Below are positions 3,620-35,012 of a DNA stretch of 35,012 nucleotides, piece after piece (positions within the stretch are counted from its first letter, which is position 1; each line of letters begins with the position of its first letter). The notes below the pieces were generated by a model. It made no database searches and had not been told where the DNA came from. It worked only from the letters and a program-made list of their open reading frames with translations. The DNA lies in IMG/VR virus record IMGVR_UViG_3300028176_000011, positions 1 to 35,012 of that record; one strand, 5' to 3'. The translations under genes and the position numbers were made by a program. Source of the DNA: a virus.

Positions 3620-3745
3620 CATTTGGTATTGTAAGACCATGAAGCGACAATTCCGCAGTGGCACTACGGATTAGCGCGAGTCGAAAAGCACCTGACCGAA
3701 ATCGATCGCAACACCCGGCGCTAGGCTCGACCCTTTTAATCCATG

Positions 3746-3780
3746 TTCACGCCTCACGTTTCACGTTTCACGTTTCACGC
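3746..3780 (-). repeat. GTGAAAC microrepeat upstream of integrase
   Basis: About four copies of tcacgtt lie on the plus strand, ending just before the ATG at 3784. The copy has the same genomic orientation as those at 19198-19221, 21676-21690 and 28832-28866, so relative to the integrase it is antisense. Confidence 0.8.
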
Positions 3781-3783
3781 ACC

Positions 3784-5148
3784 ATGAACATCACGTCATC
3801 CCCTCGGTTCAAAGTTAGCCTTCTCGCCGACGGCCGTCCCCCAGTTGGACCGGCGCTCTCCGCCGACACGCACGCACCGCGCACCAGGAACCCCGCCAAG
3901 CTCGTGACTGCCGGCAGCGCCAGCGTCCAGATATTTGGCCGCGCTCCCGGGCCATTCACCATCGCCTGGCGCGAGACTGCTGGCGGAACCCGCCGACGGG
4001 CTATGCGGTCCACATTTGCCAAAGCCAAGCGATTCGCGGAAAGCATCGCCACCAACGTCGCCAACGGCCAGACGGCCATGAATCAATTCACCGAGGCCGA
4101 CCGCGCCAGTTATCGCCGTGCCATCGAGATCCTGGGTCCCACCGGCCAAGCCCTCGAAACAGCCGCCGCAGAACATGCCCGGCGCGAGAAACTGCTGGTG
4201 GATCAGCATATCACCTTCGACCGCCTCATCACGCACTGGGCTGAGACCTGTCCCCGGGATTTCACCCCGTTGCCCATGCCCGCCCTGGTCGAACAGTTCC
4301 TCCAGGAAAAGGCCGAAGAAATCTGCGTTGAATGGCACACCGCCCTCAGCCAGCAACTCCACCGCCTGGCCAAGTGGACCCAGCGTCCACTGCATACCCT
4401 GAGTGCGGAGGAACTCACCGCCTGGTTGCGCGACCTAAAAGTGGGCCCCCGCACGCGCGCCAACTATCGCGCCGGCCTCGAGCAGCTCGCCCAATGGGCA
4501 AAGGATAACCAGCACTTACCGCGCATCTGGTCCGCACTCGACCAGGTCAAACGAACGAAAGTGCCACAATCGGAGATCAAGATTCTCACCCCCGAGGACC
4601 TCACCAAGCTGCTTTATGCCAGGTCGGAGATCGAAGAGCATGGCCGTGGCCATTCCGGCCTCTTGCTGTTGCTGGCGCTGCAAGCCTTCGCTGGCCTCCG
4701 CCATTCCGAAGCCCGCCGACTCGACTGGCGCGACGTGCATCTGTCTGAGCGGCACCTCTTCGTCGCCAAAGATGTCGCCCGCAAGATCAAGCGCGATCGC
4801 CTGGTGCCCATCTCCGATAACCTCGCTGCCTGGTTGCAGGCCTCCTCCCGGCCCAACGGTTTGATCTGTCCCATGCACCAGACCAGCGGAGCCCTCACCA
4901 AGGCCAAGCGCTCGGCCGGACTGCCCAGCGGCCGCAATGAAAGCCGGAACATCCTTCGGAAGAGTTTCATCAGTTACCGGTTGGCGCTGATCCAGAACCG
5001 CGCCCAGGTCGCTGAGGAGGCTGGCAATTCCCCATCTGTGATCCGGGCCAACTATCTGCGCCCCATACCGGAATCCGAAGCTCGGCGCTGGTTCAACATC
5101 TGGCCGCAGACCTCCGGCATTATCCAGCTCAAGTTCGCCGGCCTGTAG
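3784..5148 (+). CDS. int: Tyrosine recombinase/integrase (PVC-type)
   Basis: This site-specific recombinase would integrate the phage into the host chromosome. The start at ATG 3784 (454 residues) is preferred. A GTG at 3658 would add 42 residues, partly encoded by a microrepeat. Residues ~165-245 are the core-binding SAM-like domain (LVEQFLQEK... TRANYRAGLEQLAQWAK). The catalytic domain follows with Arg306 in FAGLRHSEARRL, a Lys near 334 (DVARKIKRDRLVPI), Arg392 in NILRKSFISYRLA and Tyr424 in ANYLRPI. The usual His of H-x-x-R is Asn389, and the second His is Asn415 (AGNSPSVI). As I recall, the Asn pattern is common in integrases of Verrucomicrobiota and related phyla, which is the main host clue. 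It is the only gene on this strand, convergent with the late operon. Confidence 0.92.
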   Translation: MNITSSPRFKVSLLADGRPPVGPALSADTHAPRTRNPAKLVTAGSASVQIFGRAPGPFTIAWRETAGGTRRRAMRSTFAKAKRFAESIATNVANGQTAMNQFTEADRASYRRAIEILGPTGQALETAAAEHARREKLLVDQHITFDRLITHWAETCPRDFTPLPMPALVEQFLQEKAEEICVEWHTALSQQLHRLAKWTQRPLHTLSAEELTAWLRDLKVGPRTRANYRAGLEQLAQWAKDNQHLPRIWSALDQVKRTKVPQSEIKILTPEDLTKLLYARSEIEEHGRGHSGLLLLLALQAFAGLRHSEARRLDWRDVHLSERHLFVAKDVARKIKRDRLVPISDNLAAWLQASSRPNGLICPMHQTSGALTKAKRSAGLPSGRNESRNILRKSFISYRLALIQNRAQVAEEAGNSPSVIRANYLRPIPESEARRWFNIWPQTSGIIQLKFAGL

Positions 5149-5209
5149 ATGGGTGCGAAAATCCTATTCCTGTCATAAAGCTGTCAGCTTTTCCGGGAGA
5201 CCCTCACAA

Positions 5210-5276
5210 AACCCTTTAGAATATGGTGCGCGATAGAGGGTTTAAACCTCTATCGCGCACCATATTCTAAAGGGTT
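5210..5276. repeat. 67-bp palindrome: 30-bp perfect arms, 7-base centre
   Basis: The left arm 5210-5239 and right arm 5247-5276 are exact reverse complements around gtttaaa. Removing one g at 5240 would make the whole 66 bp perfectly symmetrical. It sits 60 bases after the integrase stop in the 305-base gap between convergent genes. After the hairpin the minus strand continues with TTTTG and the plus strand with AAAAAG, so only a leftward terminator role is supported by a tail. Other candidate roles are an attP arm or a folded single-strand recombination site, a replication or resolution site, or a telomere-like site. The rest of 5149-5453 holds two TCTGTCATAA-like copies (near 5170 and 5391), a GGTGACGTGCGGTGACACC stretch and the hairpin below. 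Confidence 0.9.
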
Positions 5277-5414
5277 AAAAAGTGCCTTCTACCATTGGTT
5301 TTATTGGTCATTTTGCTGGTCCTGACGGAAGTCGGTTAACATTGAGAAAGTGCCAGCCGGTGACGTGCGGTGACACCTGCCAGTCAGATTCTGTCATAAC
5401 GGAGCGGATCGGAT

Positions 5415-5440
5415 AAATCGTAACAGTTGTTACGATTTTT
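5415..5440 (+). terminator. Probable terminator hairpin downstream of integrase
   Basis: The sequence forms a 10-bp stem (AAATCGTAAC with GTTACGATTT), a 4-base loop AGTT and a run of T ending at 5440. The stem is AT-rich, so strength is uncertain. It lies just beyond the end of the leftward late operon (stop at 5454) and could work in both directions. Confidence 0.5.
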
Positions 5441-5453
5441 CAGCTTGCCTGGC

Positions 5454-6206
5454 TCATGTGAGTTGCCGCACCAGCCAGAAATCATCCGCCAGGTCACCGT
5501 CTGTCAGGTAGTCCAGAGGAAACCAGCAATAGCCCTTCTGACCCCACCGTGGCCCCCAGGAGTTGCGCACCTTTCCCAGCCGCCGGCCCAGATCCAATTG
5601 GCACAGCCAGAGCGCATGGCCCCCGGCCATGGATTCGTCCGGCTTGGGCATCGGCACCATGCCGGTCCGCTGGACCTCCGCAGACTCGAATGAGTCGTAG
5701 ATCGTCGCCCCAAAGCACAGTGGCCCGAGGATCATCGCCGCCACGAGTGCCTCTTCCGTTGTGTTGTCCACCCGCTGGTAATCCAACACCTCGCAATACT
5801 GCGCCCGCTCAAAAGCCTCCATTGATGGCTCCAAAGTCACCCGGCCCGGGTCATATGGCCACAGGTATTCCGGACAGATGCCATCAGTGATCGCTCCGGC
5901 GATTATGTCGCGGATCTGCGCGCCCGCGTCGGAATCCGTTGTCCCCTCGCGATCGCGCGCCGCCCAGTACGAGAACAGTCTGGACGGCATGATCTCCGGC
6001 TTCTCCTGCTGTCGACGCAGAAACAGCGCCTGCGCCGCAAACATGTTCCCCGTGCAGGAACCGAGCTGTCCCTGGTCCCACGCCGGCGGAATACCAACCG
6101 ACCAGTCGCGCGTTAATTGCGCCTGAGGATGCGCTGCCCCGCAGAACTTCTCATCCCGCTTATCGGGCCGGTCCGGAATCCAGCCATAGCGCGCCGTTCG
6201 TCTCAT
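5454..6206 (-). CDS. Papain-like C1A cysteine peptidase
   Basis: A cysteine peptidase of the papain fold, 250 residues from ATG 6206. That start overlaps the phosphatase stop in an ATGA, and YGWIPDRPDKRD follows it, the usual opening of compact bacterial C1A proteins. The active site is complete: oxyanion Gln45 and nucleophile Cys51 (WDQGQLGSCTGNMFA), His197 (GGHALWL) and Asn215 (VRNSWGPRWGQKGYCWFP). There is no signal peptide or long prodomain. It is the last gene of the leftward operon, after a holin-like protein, a lipoprotein and a membrane phosphatase, where an endolysin is normally found. It may attack host or virion protein, or act on cell-wall peptides as the related CHAP and NlpC folds do. 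The C1A signature itself points to a protein substrate. Confidence 0.88.
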   Translation of the reverse strand: MRRTARYGWIPDRPDKRDEKFCGAAHPQAQLTRDWSVGIPPAWDQGQLGSCTGNMFAAQALFLRRQQEKPEIMPSRLFSYWAARDREGTTDSDAGAQIRDIIAGAITDGICPEYLWPYDPGRVTLEPSMEAFERAQYCEVLDYQRVDNTTEEALVAAMILGPLCFGATIYDSFESAEVQRTGMVPMPKPDESMAGGHALWLCQLDLGRRLGKVRNSWGPRWGQKGYCWFPLDYLTDGDLADDFWLVRQLT

Positions 6207-6781
6207 TCCGATTGTCGCTTTCTGCTGGCTGATTCCCAGAAGCGGGTCAGTCCCACAAGTGCCGGGTGGTATCCGTGATTTGTCATCTCGCACCAGGCCG
6301 CCGCGGCGTTGCTACGCTCCTGCAACCGGTAGAGCCCCACCAGCAACCCAGTCCTGTCCTGGCCATGAGCGCAATGCACGAACGTGCCTGGGACCAGAGC
6401 CTTCAGCGCCGTGCTCATAGCCACCGGATCTGGCCCCTCGATCAACTGTTCCATCGTATCGATCGGAAAGTAGAAAAGCCGGAAGCCAGCATCTATGGCC
6501 AACTGGTCGGATGCCTCCTCGTCGGTATTCAGCTTGATGTCATTCGTCAGGCCCAGCCCACGAAGGTAGGCCCACGCCGCCGCCGACTTCGGCTGTCCCC
6601 CGCGCCAGATGCCCGGCTCGACCTGGTCAAGGTTGGGCACCCCGCTGGCCGGGTCAGCACCTGATGTCGCACACCCGCCAAAGAGAAACGTCAGGATCAG
6701 CCAGAACAACGCCCCGAGCACCGCCGTGGCGATGCCCATCTTCCCCACAACCTTCCATTCAAACGGATCGAGGTTCTGCAT
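6203..6781 (-). CDS. Membrane-anchored dual-specificity (Cys-based) phosphatase
   Basis: A 192-residue protein from ATG 6781. Upstream in-frame codons lie inside the preceding lipoprotein gene. Residues ~15-34 are a strong hydrophobic segment (IATAVLGALFWLILTFLFGG) followed by Cys37, which gives a membrane anchor or lipobox-like site. The rest faces outward or stays cytoplasmic depending on topology. Residues 53-155 are a DSP/tyrosine phosphatase domain: entry strand PGIWRGGQP, probable acid Asp108 (YFPIDT) and the CX5R loop HCAHGQDRTG with Cys137 and Arg143. It would hydrolyse phosphate from protein Tyr/Ser/Thr or another phospho-substrate. The stop overlaps the C1A peptidase start, so the two are coupled. 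A phage membrane phosphatase in the lysis position is unusual. Confidence 0.87.
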   Translation of the reverse strand: MQNLDPFEWKVVGKMGIATAVLGALFWLILTFLFGGCATSGADPASGVPNLDQVEPGIWRGGQPKSAAAWAYLRGLGLTNDIKLNTDEEASDQLAIDAGFRLFYFPIDTMEQLIEGPDPVAMSTALKALVPGTFVHCAHGQDRTGLLVGLYRLQERSNAAAAWCEMTNHGYHPALVGLTRFWESASRKRQSE

Positions 6782-6785
6782 AGGA

Positions 6786-7112
6786 TCACGGCCCCGTGCT
6801 GGGCGCGTTAGTCCCGGCGCTTGCCGAATTCGTCGGCTGCTTAGCCATGAATAGCATCGCGCTCTTTCCCAGTTCCACGATGCCCCCGGATAACGTCGCA
6901 ATGCTCTGTTGGTCGGGCGTAGTGTCGCTCACGCTCAGGCTGGTCCCGCTTCCGTTGGTGTACACACCGTTGGAAATCTTCGTCAGGAACCCCTTCACCT
7001 GAACGCTTTCGGAGGTCCCGTCCTTGCTGGTTTTCGTGGCCGTCGCGCTCACGCATCCCGTCAGGGCCATGACTGCCACGCACAATGCCAAAACAATGAC
7101 TTTCGTTCTCAT
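6786..7112 (-). CDS. Small lipoprotein, 108 residues
   Basis: MRTKVIVLALCVAVMALTGC is a classic lipoprotein signal peptide with the lipobox LTGC (Cys20). The mature part is polar, Ser/Thr-rich (SATATKTSKDGTSESVQV), with one weak hydrophobic stretch (SGGIVELGKSAMLFM). It lies between the holin-like gene and the membrane phosphatase. Position and size fit an outer-membrane spanin subunit (Rz1-like), but the Pro-rich signature is weak and no inner-membrane partner is obvious. A different envelope lipoprotein is possible. Confidence 0.75.
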   Translation of the reverse strand: MRTKVIVLALCVAVMALTGCVSATATKTSKDGTSESVQVKGFLTKISNGVYTNGSGTSLSVSDTTPDQQSIATLSGGIVELGKSAMLFMAKQPTNSASAGTNAPSTGP

Positions 7113-7124
7113 AGGTGTCGTCTA

Positions 7125-7161
7125 TTCGGTATCCGTGTAATCCGTGTAATCCGTGGTTAAA
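7125..7161 (-). repeat. CCACGGATTACACGGATTACACGGAT microrepeat spacer
   Basis: On the minus strand TTTAACCACGG is followed by two ATTACACGG units and ATACCGAAT. The TAA is the stop codon of the holin-like gene (7157-7159). The repeat fills most of the spacer before the lipoprotein gene. Confidence 0.8.
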
Positions 7162-7384
7162 CTTCTTCCGGTGGCACTGGCGACTGCTTGAGGAACATCG
7201 CCAGCCCAACCAACCCGCCCACGACCGTAGTAGCGATGAGCTGTTTGAGGCTGAGCTGATCCACGCTCACCCCTACGATCTGGGCGCCGGTAATGCCCAG
7301 CGCGCTCAGAAACGAATTCGCCAGCCCGCCCACGACAGCCGCCGCCGCGCTCCTCAACCAGATCTTGGTCTTGCTCATGGGCAT
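7157..7384 (-). CDS. Holin-like protein with two membrane segments
   Basis: This 75-residue protein starts at ATG 7384 (second ATG at 7378). Residues ~10-32 (LRSAAAAVVGGLANSFLSAL) and ~46-65 (KQLIATTVVGGLVGLAMFL) are hydrophobic helices joined by a short loop, and the C-terminus is Pro/Glu-rich. Size, Gly/Ala-rich helices and position ahead of a lipoprotein resemble phage holins, which make inner-membrane holes late in infection. Function is inferred from topology and context only. The spacer upstream is a run of GCAGAAA microrepeats. Confidence 0.65.
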   Translation of the reverse strand: MPMSKTKIWLRSAAAAVVGGLANSFLSALGITGAQIVGVSVDQLSLKQLIATTVVGGLVGLAMFLKQSPVPPEEV

Positions 7385-7426
7385 TTCTGCTTTCTACTTT
7401 CTGCTTTCTGCTTTCTGCTTTCCCCC
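7384..7426 (-). repeat. GCAGAAA microrepeat spacer
   Basis: Five near-identical heptamers (AAAGCAG) lie on the minus strand between the stop of the 90-residue membrane protein and the ATG of the holin-like gene. The purine-rich GAGGGGGAAA at its upstream end could help ribosome binding, though it is about 40 bases from the ATG. Related copies are at 25905-25940 and 28115-28150. Confidence 0.8.
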
Positions 7427-19157: not shown

Positions 19158-19197
19158 TCTGGCACCGCCCCACCGTCAACGCACCGACCCCGCCCCT

Positions 19198-19221
19198 TCA
19201 CGTTTCACGTTTCACGCTTCA
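19198..19221 (-). repeat. GTGAAAC microrepeat containing a stop codon
   Basis: The minus strand reads GTGAAGCGTGAAACGTGAAACGTGAAGGG. The first TGA in frame (19212-19214) ends the 162-residue tail gene. Same family as 21676-21690 and 28832-28866. Confidence 0.8.
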
Positions 19222-19700
19222 CCTGTCAGGCCCGCCCCGCACGCATAGCACCGGAAATGCAGCACATCGATCCAGAAGCCCTTCTCGTCCTTGCCGCTCT
19301 CCGGCGCCCCAAACTGCACGCTCCCGGGAAACACCGTCAAATCTGACACCGACGCCGCCAGTTGCTCCGCCAGGTCGTCCACCTGTAACACCCGGAACAC
19401 CCCTTCCACCAGTGCCTGATTCGCCGCCTTGAGGCTCGCCTCCTGGCCGGCCGCATCCCCGCTCCCGTCCTCGTTGGGCACCGCTGCCGACTTGATAGCC
19501 ACCGTCCCGTTCACGAAGTAATTCCCGGTCCCATAAGGATCGTCGTTCCCGTCCACCTCAGCCGAACAAATCACCATCGGCGGCGCCTGTTTATCTTCCG
19601 CCGACTTCCCCGTCACCACCTGGGCCGCGCCGGCCACGGCCGCCACCATCGCCGCCAGGGCCGTCTCCACCTTGTCACTGATCAAAAAGAGTTGCGCCAT
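19212..19700 (-). CDS. Putative tail terminator/minor tail protein, 162 residues
   Basis: The ATG at 19700 follows the upstream stop by two bases, with GAGGACGAAG as ribosome site. The N-terminus is an Ala-rich helix (KVETALAAMVAAVAGAAQVV). Beta segments follow (APPMVICSAEVDGNDDPYGT; NYFVNGTVAIKSAA) and then an alpha/beta end with C-Y-A-C. That is the layout of tail terminator (gpU/HK97 gp10-neighbour) proteins. It lies between a gp10-like gene and the tail tube. Assignment mainly by fold pattern and order. Confidence 0.6.
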   Translation of the reverse strand: MAQLFLISDKVETALAAMVAAVAGAAQVVTGKSAEDKQAPPMVICSAEVDGNDDPYGTGNYFVNGTVAIKSAAVPNEDGSGDAAGQEASLKAANQALVEGVFRVLQVDDLAEQLAASVSDLTVFPGSVQFGAPESGKDEKGFWIDVLHFRCYACGAGLTGEA

Positions 19701-20838: not shown

Positions 20839-20886
20839 GCTGTTGCATGTTGGCTATGGGCTATGGGCTGTTGGATGTTCGATGTT
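20839..20886 (-). repeat. Microrepeat forming the C-terminus and stop of a glycosyltransferase
   Basis: The minus strand reads GGGAACATCGAACATCCAAC, then AGCCCATAGCCCATAGCCAA. It encodes the last residues NIEHPTAHSP and the TAG stop (20854-20856) of the upstream glycosyltransferase. It continues into the 89-base spacer before the head-tail joining gene. Confidence 0.75.
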
Positions 20887-21669
20887 CCCGCCCCACTCCC
20901 TCTCCAGCAATCCCTTGGCCCTTTCCCCGTATTCTCCCCGCACATCCCTCCCCTCGCTCCTCTCCAGCGCGTGCAGCGCCACGCCATACCAGTAAATCTT
21001 CCACGCCAGGTGCTGCTTCATCAGCTTCGGTTCCTGCGCGAAAGCTGCATCATAGGACCGCGCCGTCGCAACCGCCCGTTGCAGCGTTATCACGGGATCC
21101 TGCTGCCGGGCCTCTGCCGCCATATAGTCACAGTGAGAGGCCATGAATCCATCCGCCGTCGCGTGAGTCTGGTGCAGCACATAGGAAGCAGGACCCGCAG
21201 GCACCACTGCCGCCCGCCCAGGCCGGCACGCAATTGTCGCGTGGACCACGTTCTGAACCACGGCGCGTCCACGGTGGAACAGCCGCAACTGGCCCGACCA
21301 CGACCAGGGCGAAGTCTCGACATGATCGCCGAAGGAGTAATACAGGTGCGGGACAACCACTCCATCCCAGTCACTGCCAACCCAAAACGTACCCGACTCG
21401 ATCACTCCCCGCGTCGGCACTTCCCCGGCCGTAAATATCCAGATCCAGTCATGTCTGGCCATCTGCACGATTGCCATGGAATCCTCGTGGCCCGCCCGGC
21501 TGAACGGAACCCTCTCCACGCGCGCCCCGGCCGCAGCCGCGATCTCCGCCGTGCCATCCGTGGAAGACTTATCCACCACCAGGACCTCGTCCGCCCATTG
21601 CTGCGCATGTCCCAGCGCCAGCCGAATCCTCCTCGCCTCGTTATACGCCAGAATCAAACAGGTAATCAT
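20854..21669 (-). CDS. Glycosyltransferase family 2-like protein lacking DxD
   Basis: This 271-residue protein opens MITCLILAYNEARRIRLALG. It has the nucleotide-binding D-K-S-S-T-D-G-T strand-turn, and the fold continues with A-R-V-E-R-V-P-F. The metal-binding D-x-D/E site is replaced by IFTAGEVPTRG where D-A-D-E is expected. The C-terminal helix region (QDPVITLQRAVATARSYDAA) is intact. The protein ends in ten residues encoded by a microrepeat. AAGGG five bases before the ATG, part of the GTGAAAC microrepeat, gives the ribosome site. It is either a metal-independent or acceptor-specific enzyme, or inactive. It forms a pair with the next-door double glycosyltransferase. Confidence 0.82.
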   Translation of the reverse strand: MITCLILAYNEARRIRLALGHAQQWADEVLVVDKSSTDGTAEIAAAAGARVERVPFSRAGHEDSMAIVQMARHDWIWIFTAGEVPTRGVIESGTFWVGSDWDGVVVPHLYYSFGDHVETSPWSWSGQLRLFHRGRAVVQNVVHATIACRPGRAAVVPAGPASYVLHQTHATADGFMASHCDYMAAEARQQDPVITLQRAVATARSYDAAFAQEPKLMKQHLAWKIYWYGVALHALERSEGRDVRGEYGERAKGLLEREWGGNIEHPTAHSP

Positions 21670-21675
21670 CAGTTC

Positions 21676-21690
21676 CCTTCACGTTTCACT
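21676..21690 (-). repeat. GTGAAAC microrepeat giving stop and ribosome site
   Basis: AGTGAAACGTGAAGGG on the minus strand holds the TGA stop of the 584-residue glycosyltransferase (21679-21681). Its AAGGG lies five bases before the ATG of the following glycosyltransferase. Confidence 0.8.
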
Positions 21691-23433
21691 CTGCAATTGG
21701 CGTTCGCACAGCTTCCGATAGACCCTCTCCCCCGCCTCATACCGTTCCGGCGCATTCTGGTCCGCATAGGTCCGATCCAACGGCTTCCCCGTCCTGACCG
21801 GGTGCTCGTGTACAAACTGGATGTCTCGCGCCTCGATCACCGCCCCGCGCCGATAGGCGCAGTCAGTAAACCAGTTGTCTGAGAATACCCCCGTGAAATC
21901 CGGATGAAACAAGTAGCCGTCCCTTATCAGGTAATCTCGCGTGCAGATCGCCATGCACAACAGCCGGTCCCCTCGCACCCCATCGCTCACCGCCAGCACC
22001 TTCTGCTGCTTCACGTCCCCGAGCCGCTCCAGAATCAGCGAGTCCCACCTAGGCACCGGCACCCAGTCATCCGAAAGCTGCACGATCACCGGCGCCTCGG
22101 TTGCCCGGGCCCCCTCATTCCATGCCCGCACACACCCGCCCCCGGCCGGAACGACCATGTGGTGCATCCGTTTCAACGCCACGCTCTCCTGATCGTCAGC
22201 ATCCATCACAAATAGATGCTCAATCGCCGCCGGTCGCTCAGCCAGGTCGAGCCACACCTTCCGGCACATCGCCGCCTGCTGTGGCCGCCCCCGTGTCGCA
22301 TGTACCAGCGCTATCCGCGCCCCACCCGCTTTCTGCAGCATCATACGCCGCAGTGCCTCTGCCTCAGCCTCGTAACCGTTCACCCGCAGCACCTGGCTGT
22401 AAATCTCTTCCCCGAGCCACCCATAAACCGCCGCGCGGTCATTCCAGTCCGGCGATGCCGGCGGCAACGTGGCCACCATCTGCCGACCATAAGCCAGCGC
22501 CAGATCGCTCGCCCCGTAGTCCATCGAGTGGCACGCCAGCAACCCCAGCGCCTCCCGCCGCCGCGGGTCGGCCGCATAAGCCGCCTGCAGCATCGACTCC
22601 TTGGCCCTCGGATGCGTCGAAAGTTGCGCCAGATTCAACCACAGCTCGTAGCGCTCCGGCCGGCCCAGATCCGGAGCCCGCAACGCCCGCTCCGCCACCT
22701 TGATGCTACCGGTAATATCTCCCGACAGTGCCAGTTCTCCTTGAAGGTGATAAAGCAGGCCCGCCGATAAATCCTTTTCCGGTATGCTCTTGAGTATCCG
22801 CAGATTCCGCTCGCTGCTCCCCGACTTATTCAGGTGCGGCAGATGCGTCACCACTACCCGCTGATCCTCCATCCCATGCACCGGGTTCTCAGCAAACACA
22901 AAGCACTCATGCACCGGATAGCGCCACTTCCCGGACCCCCGCTTGATCATCCTCTCCCGCGGCACGCTCACCCCGCGCCCAAAAATGTTGTAAGGAAACA
23001 CATAGGCCAAATACTCCCCCTTCTCGGCATGACCCCGAATGAGTTCCACCGTGTTCGGAACTCGGATTTCGGATTTCGGATTTCCTTCGGTTTTCGGGTT
23101 TCGGTCTTCGGATTTATCATCCAGCACATCATCCGAATCGCACCAAAAACAGTAATCTCCTTCTGCCATCTCAAACGCCATATTCCGCGCCGCCGCAAAA
23201 TCGTCCACGTGTGGCCAGTCCAGGTGAAACGCCTTGTTAGGGTAGTGCGCCACCTTCAAGCGGATGTCCCGCGCCAGACAAAATCCCTGCGCCAATTCCA
23301 TCGTCCGGTCCGGCGTCTGACTCCCGATCGCCCGCACCACGCAGATTTCATCCGCAATCGGCGCAAAGCTCGCGAGGCACCGCAGGATATATTCCTCCAC
23401 ATTCCCCACGATCATGCACAGCGAGATCTTCAT
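21679..23433 (-). CDS. Double glycosyltransferase (two GT2-like domains, helical middle)
   Basis: This 584-residue protein has three parts. Residues 1-240 are a GT2 domain like bacterial SunS/WaaE-type enzymes (MKISLCMIVGNVEEYILRCL; D-x-D region WCDSDDVLDD at 98-106). Its VVD strand is changed to V-V-R-A-I-G-S-Q-T. Residues ~215-370 are TPR-like helices (AERALRAPDLGRPERYELWL). Residues 372-584 form a second glycosyltransferase-like domain (ARIALVHATRGRP, FVMDADDQESV, VQLSDDWVPVPRWDSL, FSDNWFTDCAYRRGA). A CGAAATCC microrepeat adds about 20 residues after the first DxD. It would transfer sugars, perhaps on host surface glycan or on a virion protein. It lies behind the coat-gene terminator. Confidence 0.86.
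   Translation of the reverse strand: MKISLCMIVGNVEEYILRCLASFAPIADEICVVRAIGSQTPDRTMELAQGFCLARDIRLKVAHYPNKAFHLDWPHVDDFAAARNMAFEMAEGDYCFWCDSDDVLDDKSEDRNPKTEGNPKSEIRVPNTVELIRGHAEKGEYLAYVFPYNIFGRGVSVPRERMIKRGSGKWRYPVHECFVFAENPVHGMEDQRVVVTHLPHLNKSGSSERNLRILKSIPEKDLSAGLLYHLQGELALSGDITGSIKVAERALRAPDLGRPERYELWLNLAQLSTHPRAKESMLQAAYAADPRRREALGLLACHSMDYGASDLALAYGRQMVATLPPASPDWNDRAAVYGWLGEEIYSQVLRVNGYEAEAEALRRMMLQKAGGARIALVHATRGRPQQAAMCRKVWLDLAERPAAIEHLFVMDADDQESVALKRMHHMVVPAGGGCVRAWNEGARATEAPVIVQLSDDWVPVPRWDSLILERLGDVKQQKVLAVSDGVRGDRLLCMAICTRDYLIRDGYLFHPDFTGVFSDNWFTDCAYRRGAVIEARDIQFVHEHPVRTGKPLDRTYADQNAPERYEAGERVYRKLCERQLQSET
23055..23116 (-). repeat. CGAAATCC microrepeat, in-frame in the double glycosyltransferase
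   Basis: About seven degenerate octamers encode KSEDRNPKTEGNPKSEIRVP directly after the WCDSDDVLDD motif. Same family as 151-176 and 31041-31082. Confidence 0.85.
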
Positions 23434-23442
23434 AATGTAGCT

Positions 23443-23471
23443 CGTAGCAGCCGACGTCAGTCGGCTCTAAC
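23443..23471. repeat. REP-like hairpin element, copy 1
   Basis: The plus strand reads cgtagcagccgac-gtca-gtcggctctaac, with stem GCCGAC/GTCGGC. It lies between the coat-gene terminator and the start of the double glycosyltransferase. Four more copies are at 27898, 27969, 29978 and 30043. Confidence 0.85.
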
Positions 23472-27843: not shown

Positions 27844-27897
27844 TACCCCCCCCCAGTGGTCAACCCCTTATTCCCTCCTTCCCCTCGTTCCTTCCAT

Positions 27898-27926
27898 CGT
27901 AGCAGCCGACGGCAGTCGGCTCTAAC
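27898..27926. repeat. REP-like hairpin element, copy 2
   Basis: cgtagcagccgac-ggca-gtcggctctaac, in the same orientation as the others. It lies in the non-coding region before the connector gene. Confidence 0.85.
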
Positions 27927-27968
27927 TTCCTAAATAGGCGGGTTCTGGTTTAATCCGCCCAATTACCT

Positions 27969-27997
27969 CGTAGCAGCCGACGGCAGTCGGCTCTAAC
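27969..27997. repeat. REP-like hairpin element, copy 3
   Basis: Identical to copy 2 over 29 bases, 71 bases away. The two copies flank a short AT-richer stretch. Confidence 0.85.
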
Positions 27998-28012
27998 TTC
28001 CTGGACTAGCTA

Positions 28013-29977: not shown

Positions 29978-30006
29978 CGTAGCAGCCGACGGCAGTCGGC
30001 TCTAAC
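29978..30006. repeat. REP-like hairpin element, copy 4
   Basis: Identical to copies 2 and 3. It lies in the 92-base spacer between TerL and the zinc-ribbon regulator, 36 bases before copy 5. Confidence 0.85.
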
Positions 30007-30042
30007 TATCGGGTTACTGGTTACTGCTTTCGGCTTGTTCAT

Positions 30043-30071
30043 CGTAGCCGCCGACGTCAGTCGGCTCTAAC
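30043..30071. repeat. REP-like hairpin element, copy 5, overlapping the TerL stop
   Basis: cgtagccgccgac-gtca-gtcggctctaac. Read on the minus strand it provides the last codons V-R-A-D and the TGA stop (30057-30059) of TerL. Confidence 0.88.
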
Positions 30072-31955
30072 GTCCACCGCCTCAATCCGTGCCGCTTCTG
30101 GCGCGGTGATCCGCTCCATCGCCGGGTCCGGGACCAGGTCAGACAGGATTGCCCCGAGCGTGTTCATGTTCGCCAGGTCTCGGGCATGGTCATTCCGGCT
30201 CTCCTTCCAAAAGACCCGCGTCTCGCCTGTGCGCGCCACATAGTCGGTCTTGCGCACGCGCGCCGCCATTTGCTGGGCATACTCCGATTCCATCTCTGGC
30301 TCGGTGGAGTTCAGCGGCTCTTCCCAGCTACCGTTGTCAATCATCTCCTGAACCTTTTGGTTCAGTTGCGCCTTAGAAAACGCAATCAGCGGGCAATACT
30401 TGCGCCCTCCCATCGCCCCACCGCTCCCGGGATCACCCCACGAAAGCGGCGCATAGCTCTTCTGCACATACCGCTTCCTGATTCGGTGCGTGAACGAGTA
30501 AGCCTTGTCCCCGCGCACCGCGATCCATCCGTATTTCAGACACGCCGCATACACGCCATGATCGCCCTTGGGCAGGAAGTTGGAATCGATAAACACATGG
30601 TTGGCCTCAACCTTGAATTTGAGCCGCAGTTCCTCCAGCGCCGCAAACCCATACGCCTTTCCAAACCCCAGCTTCCGGCTCTTCTCCAGTGACCAGGCCC
30701 GGGCCATCCACCAGAACATGTCTTCCTCCTGCCGATCAATCGAAAGGAACCGTCCCTTCTCCTCTGGCCAGTCCGAATGAATCTCATACGCCGACCGACG
30801 AAAATGCAGGCCACCCTTGAGTAGGCTCTCCAGGTCCCGAAACATCGCGCGCCGCTTCTGGAAGAACTGCAACTTCGGTTTCAGGTCGCCACGCTTCTCC
30901 GCGTTGCACGCATCCAGCCACAACTCAACCAACTCGTCCCACGGAAAATCAATTACCGTCTCCCAGTGAAATGAATCCTTCTTCCGCTCGACCAAATCCT
31001 CTTGGCGATCGGCGATTGGCAGTTGGCTGTCTGCCACCTGCGGATCTCCTTCGGCCTTCGGATTTCGGTCTTCGGATTTCGCTATCCGGTAGCGACCCGT
31101 CCGGTTCCATTCCCCCTTCGTCCTGGGATTGTCCAGGTGCGGATGCCGGCAGTGCGGACACTCAAAGTGCGTCGATGGCACACATTTCGGGATGTTCCAG
31201 TCCCCATTCGGCAGTTGGTAGCGGTTCCAGGTAATCCCCCAAAAGCTGCCGTCCAACCGCTGTCCCGAGAAGATCGGATCAAAGTATTTCCCACACTCGG
31301 GGTTGAGGCACTGCACTTCCCACTCATGGATCAGCCCTTTATGGTAGGCCCGATACCAGTCGCTTTCCTCCATCGGCACACCGTCCATCGGCCCGGCTTG
31401 CGAGACCCGCAAAACCTTCGAAGTCTGCATCTTCAGGTAATCGCCAATGCGCCCTTCGGCCTCGCCCATCTTCCCCTGCGACCACATCCAAACCTCCTCC
31501 TCGCGCAGATACCGGATGCCCTTCCCCTGCAGGTTGCCCAAGGCCGGACCGCGCAAATACCACGTGTGCCCATTCGAGAACAGGATCTCGTCATTCCGCA
31601 ACTCGTGCGCATCGGTCGGGAACAGCGCGGCCACCGGCTTACACCGCGCGAATATCTTTTGAATCCGTTCCTGCCCGTGATCCTTGGCGGCCTGCTCTGT
31701 CTGAAAGACGTCCATGTAGGGGCCCGGATCAACCACCAGCGTCCAGGGACAGAACACGTCGCCGATCAGCGACCCGCCACCCCGCACCGGCTTGAGCACA
31801 TTGGTCTCGCGCTTGTGATCATTCTGCAACGAGGTGAATACCCCAATGAAGTGACGCGACTCCACGCACGTGAAGAATCCCGTCTTGGTAATGGGCGGCT
31901 CCAGCCACACATGGTCGCGCGCCCACTCCGGGATCGGCCGCCGATCGCGCGGCAC
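30057..31955 (-). CDS. terL: Terminase large subunit, GpA family
   Basis: The DNA-packaging motor and headful/cos nuclease, 632 residues, as lambda gpA. The Walker A place reads LKPVRGGGSLIGDV (a departure from the canonical G-K-S), and the Walker B place is I-R-Y-L-R-E-E-E-V-W-M-W. A zinc ribbon follows at ~235-290 (CLNPECGKYFDP and FECPHCRHPHL). The nuclease domain shows LSIDRQEEDMFWWMARAW, V-F-I-D-S-N-F-L-P and SRNDHARDLANM, with the expected acidic residues. Between zinc ribbon and nuclease a microrepeat (31001-31082) adds about 25 residues, with S-E-D-R-N-P-K. A REP-like element gives the stop. It starts seven bases after TerS. Confidence 0.93.
   Translation of the reverse strand: MPRDRRPIPEWARDHVWLEPPITKTGFFTCVESRHFIGVFTSLQNDHKRETNVLKPVRGGGSLIGDVFCPWTLVVDPGPYMDVFQTEQAAKDHGQERIQKIFARCKPVAALFPTDAHELRNDEILFSNGHTWYLRGPALGNLQGKGIRYLREEEVWMWSQGKMGEAEGRIGDYLKMQTSKVLRVSQAGPMDGVPMEESDWYRAYHKGLIHEWEVQCLNPECGKYFDPIFSGQRLDGSFWGITWNRYQLPNGDWNIPKCVPSTHFECPHCRHPHLDNPRTKGEWNRTGRYRIAKSEDRNPKAEGDPQVADSQLPIADRQEDLVERKKDSFHWETVIDFPWDELVELWLDACNAEKRGDLKPKLQFFQKRRAMFRDLESLLKGGLHFRRSAYEIHSDWPEEKGRFLSIDRQEEDMFWWMARAWSLEKSRKLGFGKAYGFAALEELRLKFKVEANHVFIDSNFLPKGDHGVYAACLKYGWIAVRGDKAYSFTHRIRKRYVQKSYAPLSWGDPGSGGAMGGRKYCPLIAFSKAQLNQKVQEMIDNGSWEEPLNSTEPEMESEYAQQMAARVRKTDYVARTGETRVFWKESRNDHARDLANMNTLGAILSDLVPDPAMERITAPEAARIEAVDVRAD
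31001..31082 (-). repeat. GCCAATC + CGAAATCC microrepeats inserted in TerL
   Basis: Two families side by side (31001-31028 and 31041-31082) encode SEDRNPKAEGDPQVADSQLP plus I-A-D-R-Q-E. This is an insertion between zinc ribbon and nuclease domain of the terminase, in frame. Confidence 0.85.
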
Positions 31956-34078: not shown

Positions 34079-35012
34079 TCACGAATGCACCCCATAAAAC
34101 CGTCCCACTGCCTGCGCCAGCGTCTCGATAATGTCGTTCTGGTGTAAGCGGGCCTTAGCGTCGGAATAGGTCTTAAATGGTAACACTTTATTGGGGTCCG
34201 GAGTCCACCCTCCTACATCACCAGCGTACCGGTATTTGGACGCCACCTTGCATGTCGCGTTGCTGATCGGCGGCCTGGTTAGGACAAAACCGATGCCATT
34301 CGCGTCCACCGTAGCTGCCGGGATTTTGGGCGGGTGTGCCGCATGATGGTTCACCCTCATGTTGGCGATCGAGAACAGATCATACAGCGGTTTGAGCGCC
34401 GCCATGGCTCGACCCGCGTGCGCGGTCATATCCGCACCCGGCCAATCGGCGAGCATAGCCTCCAATCCGCCCAAATCCGCCGCGGCATCTCGCAGTGCCC
34501 ACCTTATGTCCATTTCCATGGGGGTTTTATTACCGTGCCTCACCCATGCCTCGATCTTCTCGATCGCTCGCACTGCGTAATTGCACTGCGATACCTTGCC
34601 GTCCTCCGGGGAGACCAGGTCCTGCAGCGCCCGGATGAACGTCACTGCGCGCTGCGCTGCCTCCAGCACGCGTTCCCAGTCGCGATGCACCGCGGGCGCC
34701 TGCACGGCCACGCCACGCCCCTGCTGCACCGCCGCCTTCACCTGTGCCGCCGTCGGCTTCAGCGTTGTAGAACCTGGTCCGGCATGGTTCTGGAACTGCT
34801 GCACCGCCGCCTTTACCTGTGCCGCCGTCGGCTGCTTACCGATGCCAGCGATCGCCTTGGCCTTGCTCCACGCCTCGACCGCCTGATCCTGTGGCAGCGC
34901 CGCGAGCGGTCTAACCTGGCTTTCCTTGGTCGGCAGGATGTCCAGATCGGCTTGGCGCGCACTCGCCGGGGCTGGCGAGAGTGGTAACCCCGGCGAGGAT
35001 GCCAAAGCGGTG
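34079..35012 (-). CDS. ParB-associated/DNA-binding-like phage protein, C-terminal part
   Basis: The continuation of the gene that begins at 552. Positions 34883-35012 duplicate 1-130. The C-terminal ~300 residues hold a tandem pair of T-A-A-Q-V-K-A-A-V-Q-Q segments, encoded by two 38-bp direct repeats (34721-34758 and 34796-34833, one mismatch). Helical stretches follow (WERVLEAAQRAVTFIRALQD) and a globular end (KVLPFKTYSDAKARLHQNDI). No catalytic motif is seen. A TTG at 35005 could be mistaken for the start, but the frame runs on across the join to ATG 552. Confidence 0.75.
   Translation of the reverse strand, partial: TALASSPGLPLSPAPASARQADLDILPTKESQVRPLAALPQDQAVEAWSKAKAIAGIGKQPTAAQVKAAVQQFQNHAGPGSTTLKPTAAQVKAAVQQGRGVAVQAPAVHRDWERVLEAAQRAVTFIRALQDLVSPEDGKVSQCNYAVRAIEKIEAWVRHGNKTPMEMDIRWALRDAAADLGGLEAMLADWPGADMTAHAGRAMAALKPLYDLFSIANMRVNHHAAHPPKIPAATVDANGIGFVLTRPPISNATCKVASKYRYAGDVGGWTPDPNKVLPFKTYSDAKARLHQNDIIETLAQAVGRFYGVHS
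34721..34833 (-). repeat. Two 38-bp direct repeats in the ParB-associated gene
   Basis: 34721-34758 and 34796-34833 differ by one base (34739 c, 34814 t) and both encode T-A-A-Q-V-K-A-A-V-Q-Q. A recent in-gene duplication. Confidence 0.85.
34883..35012. repeat. Terminal direct repeat, right copy (circular join)
   Basis: The same 130 bases as 1-130, except position 34886. It marks the place where the circle was opened. Confidence 0.93.

Follow-up and report, generated by a model that had tools for sequence, protein, structure and literature searches.

Does the large palindrome beside the integrase gene of this virus serve integration, the termination of transcription or some other process? 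The window, i.e. the whole stretch of 35,012 nucleotides that was analysed (IMG/VR record IMGVR_UViG_3300028176_000011), represents the circular genome, about 34.9 kb long, of a temperate phage. A 130-bp direct repeat with one mismatch is present at both ends (1-130 and 34883-35012), and a second, nearly identical contig (IMGVR_UViG_3300028178_000192, here G002) spans this terminal joint, which makes the genome circular or circularly permuted. The minus strand encodes portal, head, tape-measure and terminase proteins, the plus strand a tyrosine integrase (int). In agreement with a preliminary description of the sequence, the palindrome lies beside int and at the end of the late operon: int (3784-5148, plus strand) and the last late gene (5454-6293, minus strand) converge on a gap of 305 bp (5149-5453), in which it is found. 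ARAGORN reports zero tRNA genes in the window.

Over about 12 kb, G002 (1-294, against window 3639-3665) matches the window at 99.9-100% identity, and it diverges exactly at window position 3665. Past this point the two share no sequence, and consequently G002 is uninformative on the attachment site. The divergence falls inside a small ribbon-helix-helix-like gene (MKRQFRSGT...) that is open to the contig end in G002 and cut short in the window just ahead of the int module, which we read as a recent exchange of modules upstream of int. Dispersed short repeats of one family (77-100% identical; 27897-28002, 29978-30075, 23438-23471, 19194-19222, 3754-3780 and 7381-7416) recur at several positions of the late operon and ahead of int. 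The late operon also carries unusual cargo for a phage: its last genes (5454-6901) encode a papain-like cysteine protease (Peptidase_C1) and a tyrosine-phosphatase-like protein. Two glycosyltransferase genes (20857-23433; PHROG beta-1,4-glycosyltransferase / glycosyltransferase) follow directly downstream of the major head protein. At 7122-7160 a ATCCGTGTAATCCGTGTAATCCGTGG repeat is present, presumably of a type found in verrucomicrobial genomes and thereby a hint at the host phylum.

The palindrome itself covers 67 bases (5210-5276) and is near-perfect. Its left arm (5210-5239) and right arm (5247-5276) are exact reverse complements over 30 bp, as had been claimed, and flank the 7-nt asymmetric centre GTTTAAA (5240-5246, plus strand). 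This centre had been described as one base off symmetry, which holds in so far as dropping one G yields a perfect 66-bp palindrome (AACCC...AGAGGTTT/AAACCTCT...GGGTT), but plain symmetry fails at three positions; alternatively, the element can be described as 33-nt arms (97% match) with 1 nt between them. The longest other arm in the window measures 11 bp (loops of at most 20 nt) or 12 bp (wider loops), and the longest arm in simulated sequence of the same composition is 10. An exact inverted duplication this long had been said to be usually lost unless selected; in E. coli, strong instability of palindromes applies above about 100-150 bp. Folded as RNA, the palindrome gives a very stable hairpin on both strands (about -57 to -62 kcal/mol, z = -10 to -15). 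It is carried by one record only; G002 ends before it.

A hairpin-forming element that is richer in AT than its genome (43% against 60% GC) might be a folded single-strand recombination site, a replication-fork site or an inserted palindromic mobile element (MITE/REP-like) unrelated to the integrase. Against this, the palindrome is single-copy, its sole other match in the genome being its own reverse complement, and a 19-base exact probe of the arm has zero matches in genome_contigs and viral_contigs. A target duplication is absent as well, and the flanks are attP arms (see below). Nothing was found in favour of the single-strand or fork sites suggested earlier, and we consider this group of explanations very unlikely.

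The neighbouring integrase has 454 residues when started from ATG 3784 (the reading frame is open from GTG 3658) and matches the PHROG integrase profile (6e-18) and Pfam Phage_integrase. In an alignment of 24 members the residues R306, K334, N389-x-x-R392, N415 and Y424 are invariant and match the tyrosine-recombinase active site, with N replacing the usual H of HxxR in these 24 members. An arm-binding-like N-terminus (three strands and a helix at residues 46-100), a core-binding domain and a catalytic domain are predicted. The AlphaFold model (pLDDT 82) has an N-terminal beta-sheet with a helix, followed by the core-binding and catalytic domains, and Foldseek places full-length lambda Int (1z1b) among its best matches (422 columns aligned); as modelled, the protein shares the three-domain layout of lambda Int. 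By profile and fold it is thus of the lambda/Xer type, in line with the ordinary-looking integrase that had been noted near the palindrome.

A long near-perfect palindrome adjoining a tyrosine recombinase gene could also be the telomere resolution site of a protelomerase, with the prophage kept as a linear plasmid. However, ResT-TelK_cat is unmatched in the genome (a control genome was matched), the integrase belongs to the lambda/Xer-like family and the symmetric centre is broken by one G. In addition, arm-type sites such as those described below are unexpected at telomeres, and in one relative whose attP is laid out alike, a tmRNA 3' end occupies the core. The protelomerase option raised earlier is therefore extremely improbable.

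Around the palindrome we found four putative arm-type binding sites, all on the plus strand and given here with their offsets from the core centre. On the P side, site 1 (CTGTCATAA, 5170-5178, offset -72) is followed after 11 bp by its direct repeat, site 2 (CTGTCAGCT, 5181-5189, -61). On the P' side, the degenerate site 1 (CAGTCAGAT, 5381-5389, +139) is followed after 10 bp by site 2 (5391-5399, +149), an exact copy of P-arm site 1. Three of the four contain an exact TGTCA and the CAGTCAGAT site has AGTCA. Directly adjoining the centre, AGAGG (5235-5239, left arm) and CCTCT (5247-5251, right arm) form inverted core-type half-sites around the putative 7-bp overlap, the region of strand exchange. 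The locus thereby combines what characterizes a lambda-type attP: an adjacent tyrosine integrase gene, arm-type direct repeats on both sides at conserved spacing, inverted half-sites around an asymmetric overlap of about 7 bp and a predicted arm-binding domain in the integrase.

Relatives were collected with a pattern on the conserved KSFISYR...GNSP motif, which listed 80 of 109 matching stretches, most of them with int homologues. Searches with int alone or with a two-row alignment retrieved no kin besides G007 (IMGVR_UViG_3300020122_000326), the peptidase gene as probe gave distant matches only, and the phages and plasmids collections gave no relevant match. G007, also among the portal homologues (portal 68% identical), is complete with a 127-bp terminal repeat and has a homologous int with an attP-like layout downstream of it, one further ORF lying between. 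The integrases of the window, locus L148 and G007 are 33-37% identical (33-35% for G007). In the window, G007 and L148 the same order is seen downstream of int: a pair of TGTC-type direct repeats (spacing 11 bp) comes first, then a dyad whose centre has 7 nt, and finally a second pair in the same direction (spacing 10 bp). Offsets from the centre are -72, -61, +136 and +146 in L148 and -71, -60, +126 and +136 in G007. In 1.8 Mb of retrieved loci a four-site template matches these three phages only, and it matches 0/120 simulated strand-windows; as it was formulated after inspection of the same three phages, the simulation bounds chance and is not an independent test. Other targets occur in the same integrase family: a tRNA 3' end lies upstream of int in G016 (locus L053, 2157-2186) and a tmRNA 3' end downstream of it in L148 (5393-5480), from which it appears that the family moves among tRNA and tmRNA targets.

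It had been argued beforehand that relatives with a similar int but no palindrome would speak for a mere terminator or an assembly artefact. On this point the outcome is divided. The long palindrome is absent from the relatives: among the 80 of 109 matching loci listed, palindrome arms longer than 10 bp do not occur up to 600 bp from int (in G007 the dyad is located further downstream). Two relatives nonetheless have a shorter dyad with a 7-nt centre in the same register, which argues for a core site rather than a mere terminator. In G007 this core consists of 10-bp perfect arms (12 with one G-T wobble) around TTTGTAT. L148 has the 3' end of a tmRNA as its core (Rfam E 1.7e-12), with the 5-bp T-stem as the inverted half-sites and the 7-nt T-loop as the centre.

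A bidirectional or leftward terminator, which would stop late transcripts from running antisense into int, is nevertheless suggested by the position of the palindrome between convergent genes, by the stability of its RNA hairpin on both strands and by GGGTTTTGTG, which follows it on the minus strand. This T-run (TTTTGTG) is weak, as already stated in the preliminary description, and on the plus strand a T-run is absent (AAAAAGTGCC; AAAAAG). A terminator scan of the sequence left the palindrome uncalled, a G+C-rich hairpin followed by a T-run not being found there. Moreover, a separate terminator-like hairpin (AAATCGTAACA-GT-TGTTACGATTT, 5415-5438, with the T-run following on the plus strand) is located between the late operon and the palindrome, and the attP geometry centred on the 7-nt centre would have to be a coincidence. 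A bidirectional or leftward terminator is hence quite unlikely as the main function, whereas in the episome the palindrome could also terminate transcripts as a secondary effect.

Given that a single record carries the palindrome, that G002 falls short of it and that the relatives are without it, it might also be an assembly artefact, a false inverted duplication created where reads of attP, attB, attL and attR mix. The arm sites, however, stand on both flanks at kin-like spacing (+139 against +136 for the first P' site), which implies that no extra 28 bp was inserted, and both edges of the palindrome break at the same point, which is unexpected of fold-back chimaeras. We therefore regard an artefact as distinctly improbable.

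Taken together, the palindrome is very probably the core of the attP of this phage, with a 7-bp overlap and inverted core sites for the integrase; the telomere, terminator and folded single-strand readings are less supported. The attP arm proposed earlier was close to this: layout and integrase support attP well, but the palindrome is its core and not an arm. The N-terminal domain of the integrase would bind the arm-type TGTCA repeats, and its core-binding and catalytic domains the inverted half-sites beside the centre. Cleavage would then take place at the edges of the GTTTAAA overlap, which would recombine with an identical stretch of the host chromosome. The host target may be a tRNA gene, for which CCTCTATCGCGCACCA is a candidate tRNA/tmRNA gene end. 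No attB, attL or attR was found, and the arm probe is absent from both contig collections.

A tRNA 3'-end-like string is indeed present within the palindrome (5224-5251, minus strand). It reads AGAGG-TTTAAAC-CCTCT-ATCGCGC-A-CCA, in the order T-stem, loop, T-stem, seven acceptor bases, discriminator and CCA, and its register is that of L148. This combination of T-arm and CCA matches once in the window (0.03 expected per shuffled window); a palindrome with a 7-nt loop would contain it by chance with P = 0.0004. A T occupies the place of the invariant C56, and the Rfam covariance model left the string unscored while scoring a real 30-nt tRNA 3' end (E 3.9e-6); a tRNA-derived core is for these reasons no more than plausible. 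The resemblance of TTTAAAC to the anticodon loop of tRNA-Leu(UAA) was considered as well and this reading was rejected, the T-arm and D-arm being absent at the right places in the sequence.

Integration alone does not account for the length of the arms. Att sites with a 7-bp overlap and a flanking dyad, and att sites in T stem-loops, are well known (PMC8371274). The related integrases use the T-arm of tRNA or tmRNA genes, in which inverted stems around a 7-nt loop are naturally present. The cores of the relatives are symmetric over 5-12 bp only (about 10 bp in G007, 5 in L148), leaving the 30 bp of the window unexplained by attP function; its arms are about three times the kin length. Recombination probably does not require symmetry as far out as 30 bp. 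Template switching can create perfect stems in one event (PMC8794818), and we infer that the extra 20 bp per side most likely derive from a single such event, in which replication would have switched template at a short hairpin and copied one arm as a mirror image. The P' spacing suggests that the mirror arm replaced sequence rather than added it.

Selection for the long palindrome through either-orientation integration, cruciform extrusion or episomal termination is not supported. With a core that is nearly fully mirror-symmetric (a 66-bp perfect palindrome with TTTAAA at its centre), the phage might integrate both ways round, with the same target 3' end restored each time. Alternatively, a cruciform or hairpin might form only in the circular phage and be divided in the prophage, so that late transcription or integrase access would be switched according to the state of the phage. 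We consider such a role unlikely.

With the attP core as the preferred reading, an unexplained palindrome in an uncultured phage becomes a predicted integration site with a defined crossover. The att layout of a little-studied integrase family (P arms at -72/-61, P' arms at about +126 to +149) makes the cores of its members directly readable. The over-long palindrome also offers a natural test of the degree of core symmetry that a directional integrase can tolerate, and it may have grown by template switching at a tRNA-like hairpin.

Among known systems, the site resembles the lambda-type attP in having two direct-repeat arm sites per side, inverted half-sites around a 7-bp asymmetric centre and int next to it, and the modelled integrase resembles lambda Int in its arm-binding-like, core-binding and catalytic domains; it differs in a core symmetric over 30 bp each way against about 7-10. 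With the attP of tRNA and tmRNA 3' ends (the Williams sublocation class, to which L148 belongs) it shares the register of T-stem, 7-nt loop and T-stem and an ACCA at the right distance. Its T-loop TTTAAAC, however, lacks the invariant C56, its other side is a mirror copy and not phage sequence, and it is unrecognised by Rfam. G007 has a related portal (68%) and int (33-35%), the same four arm sites and a palindromic core with a 7-nt centre, although that core has 10-bp perfect arms of different sequence and no CCA at the expected place. The telRL and tos sites of N15, PY54 and phiKO2 are palindromes of about 40-60 bp beside a tyrosine-recombinase-like gene. The window palindrome likewise adjoins a tyrosine-recombinase gene, but it is accompanied by arm-type repeats, comes without a protelomerase and has an imperfectly symmetric centre. 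Overall, the attP sites are ordinary; it is the mirror symmetry of 30 bases each way (against about 10) that is seen in no relative checked.
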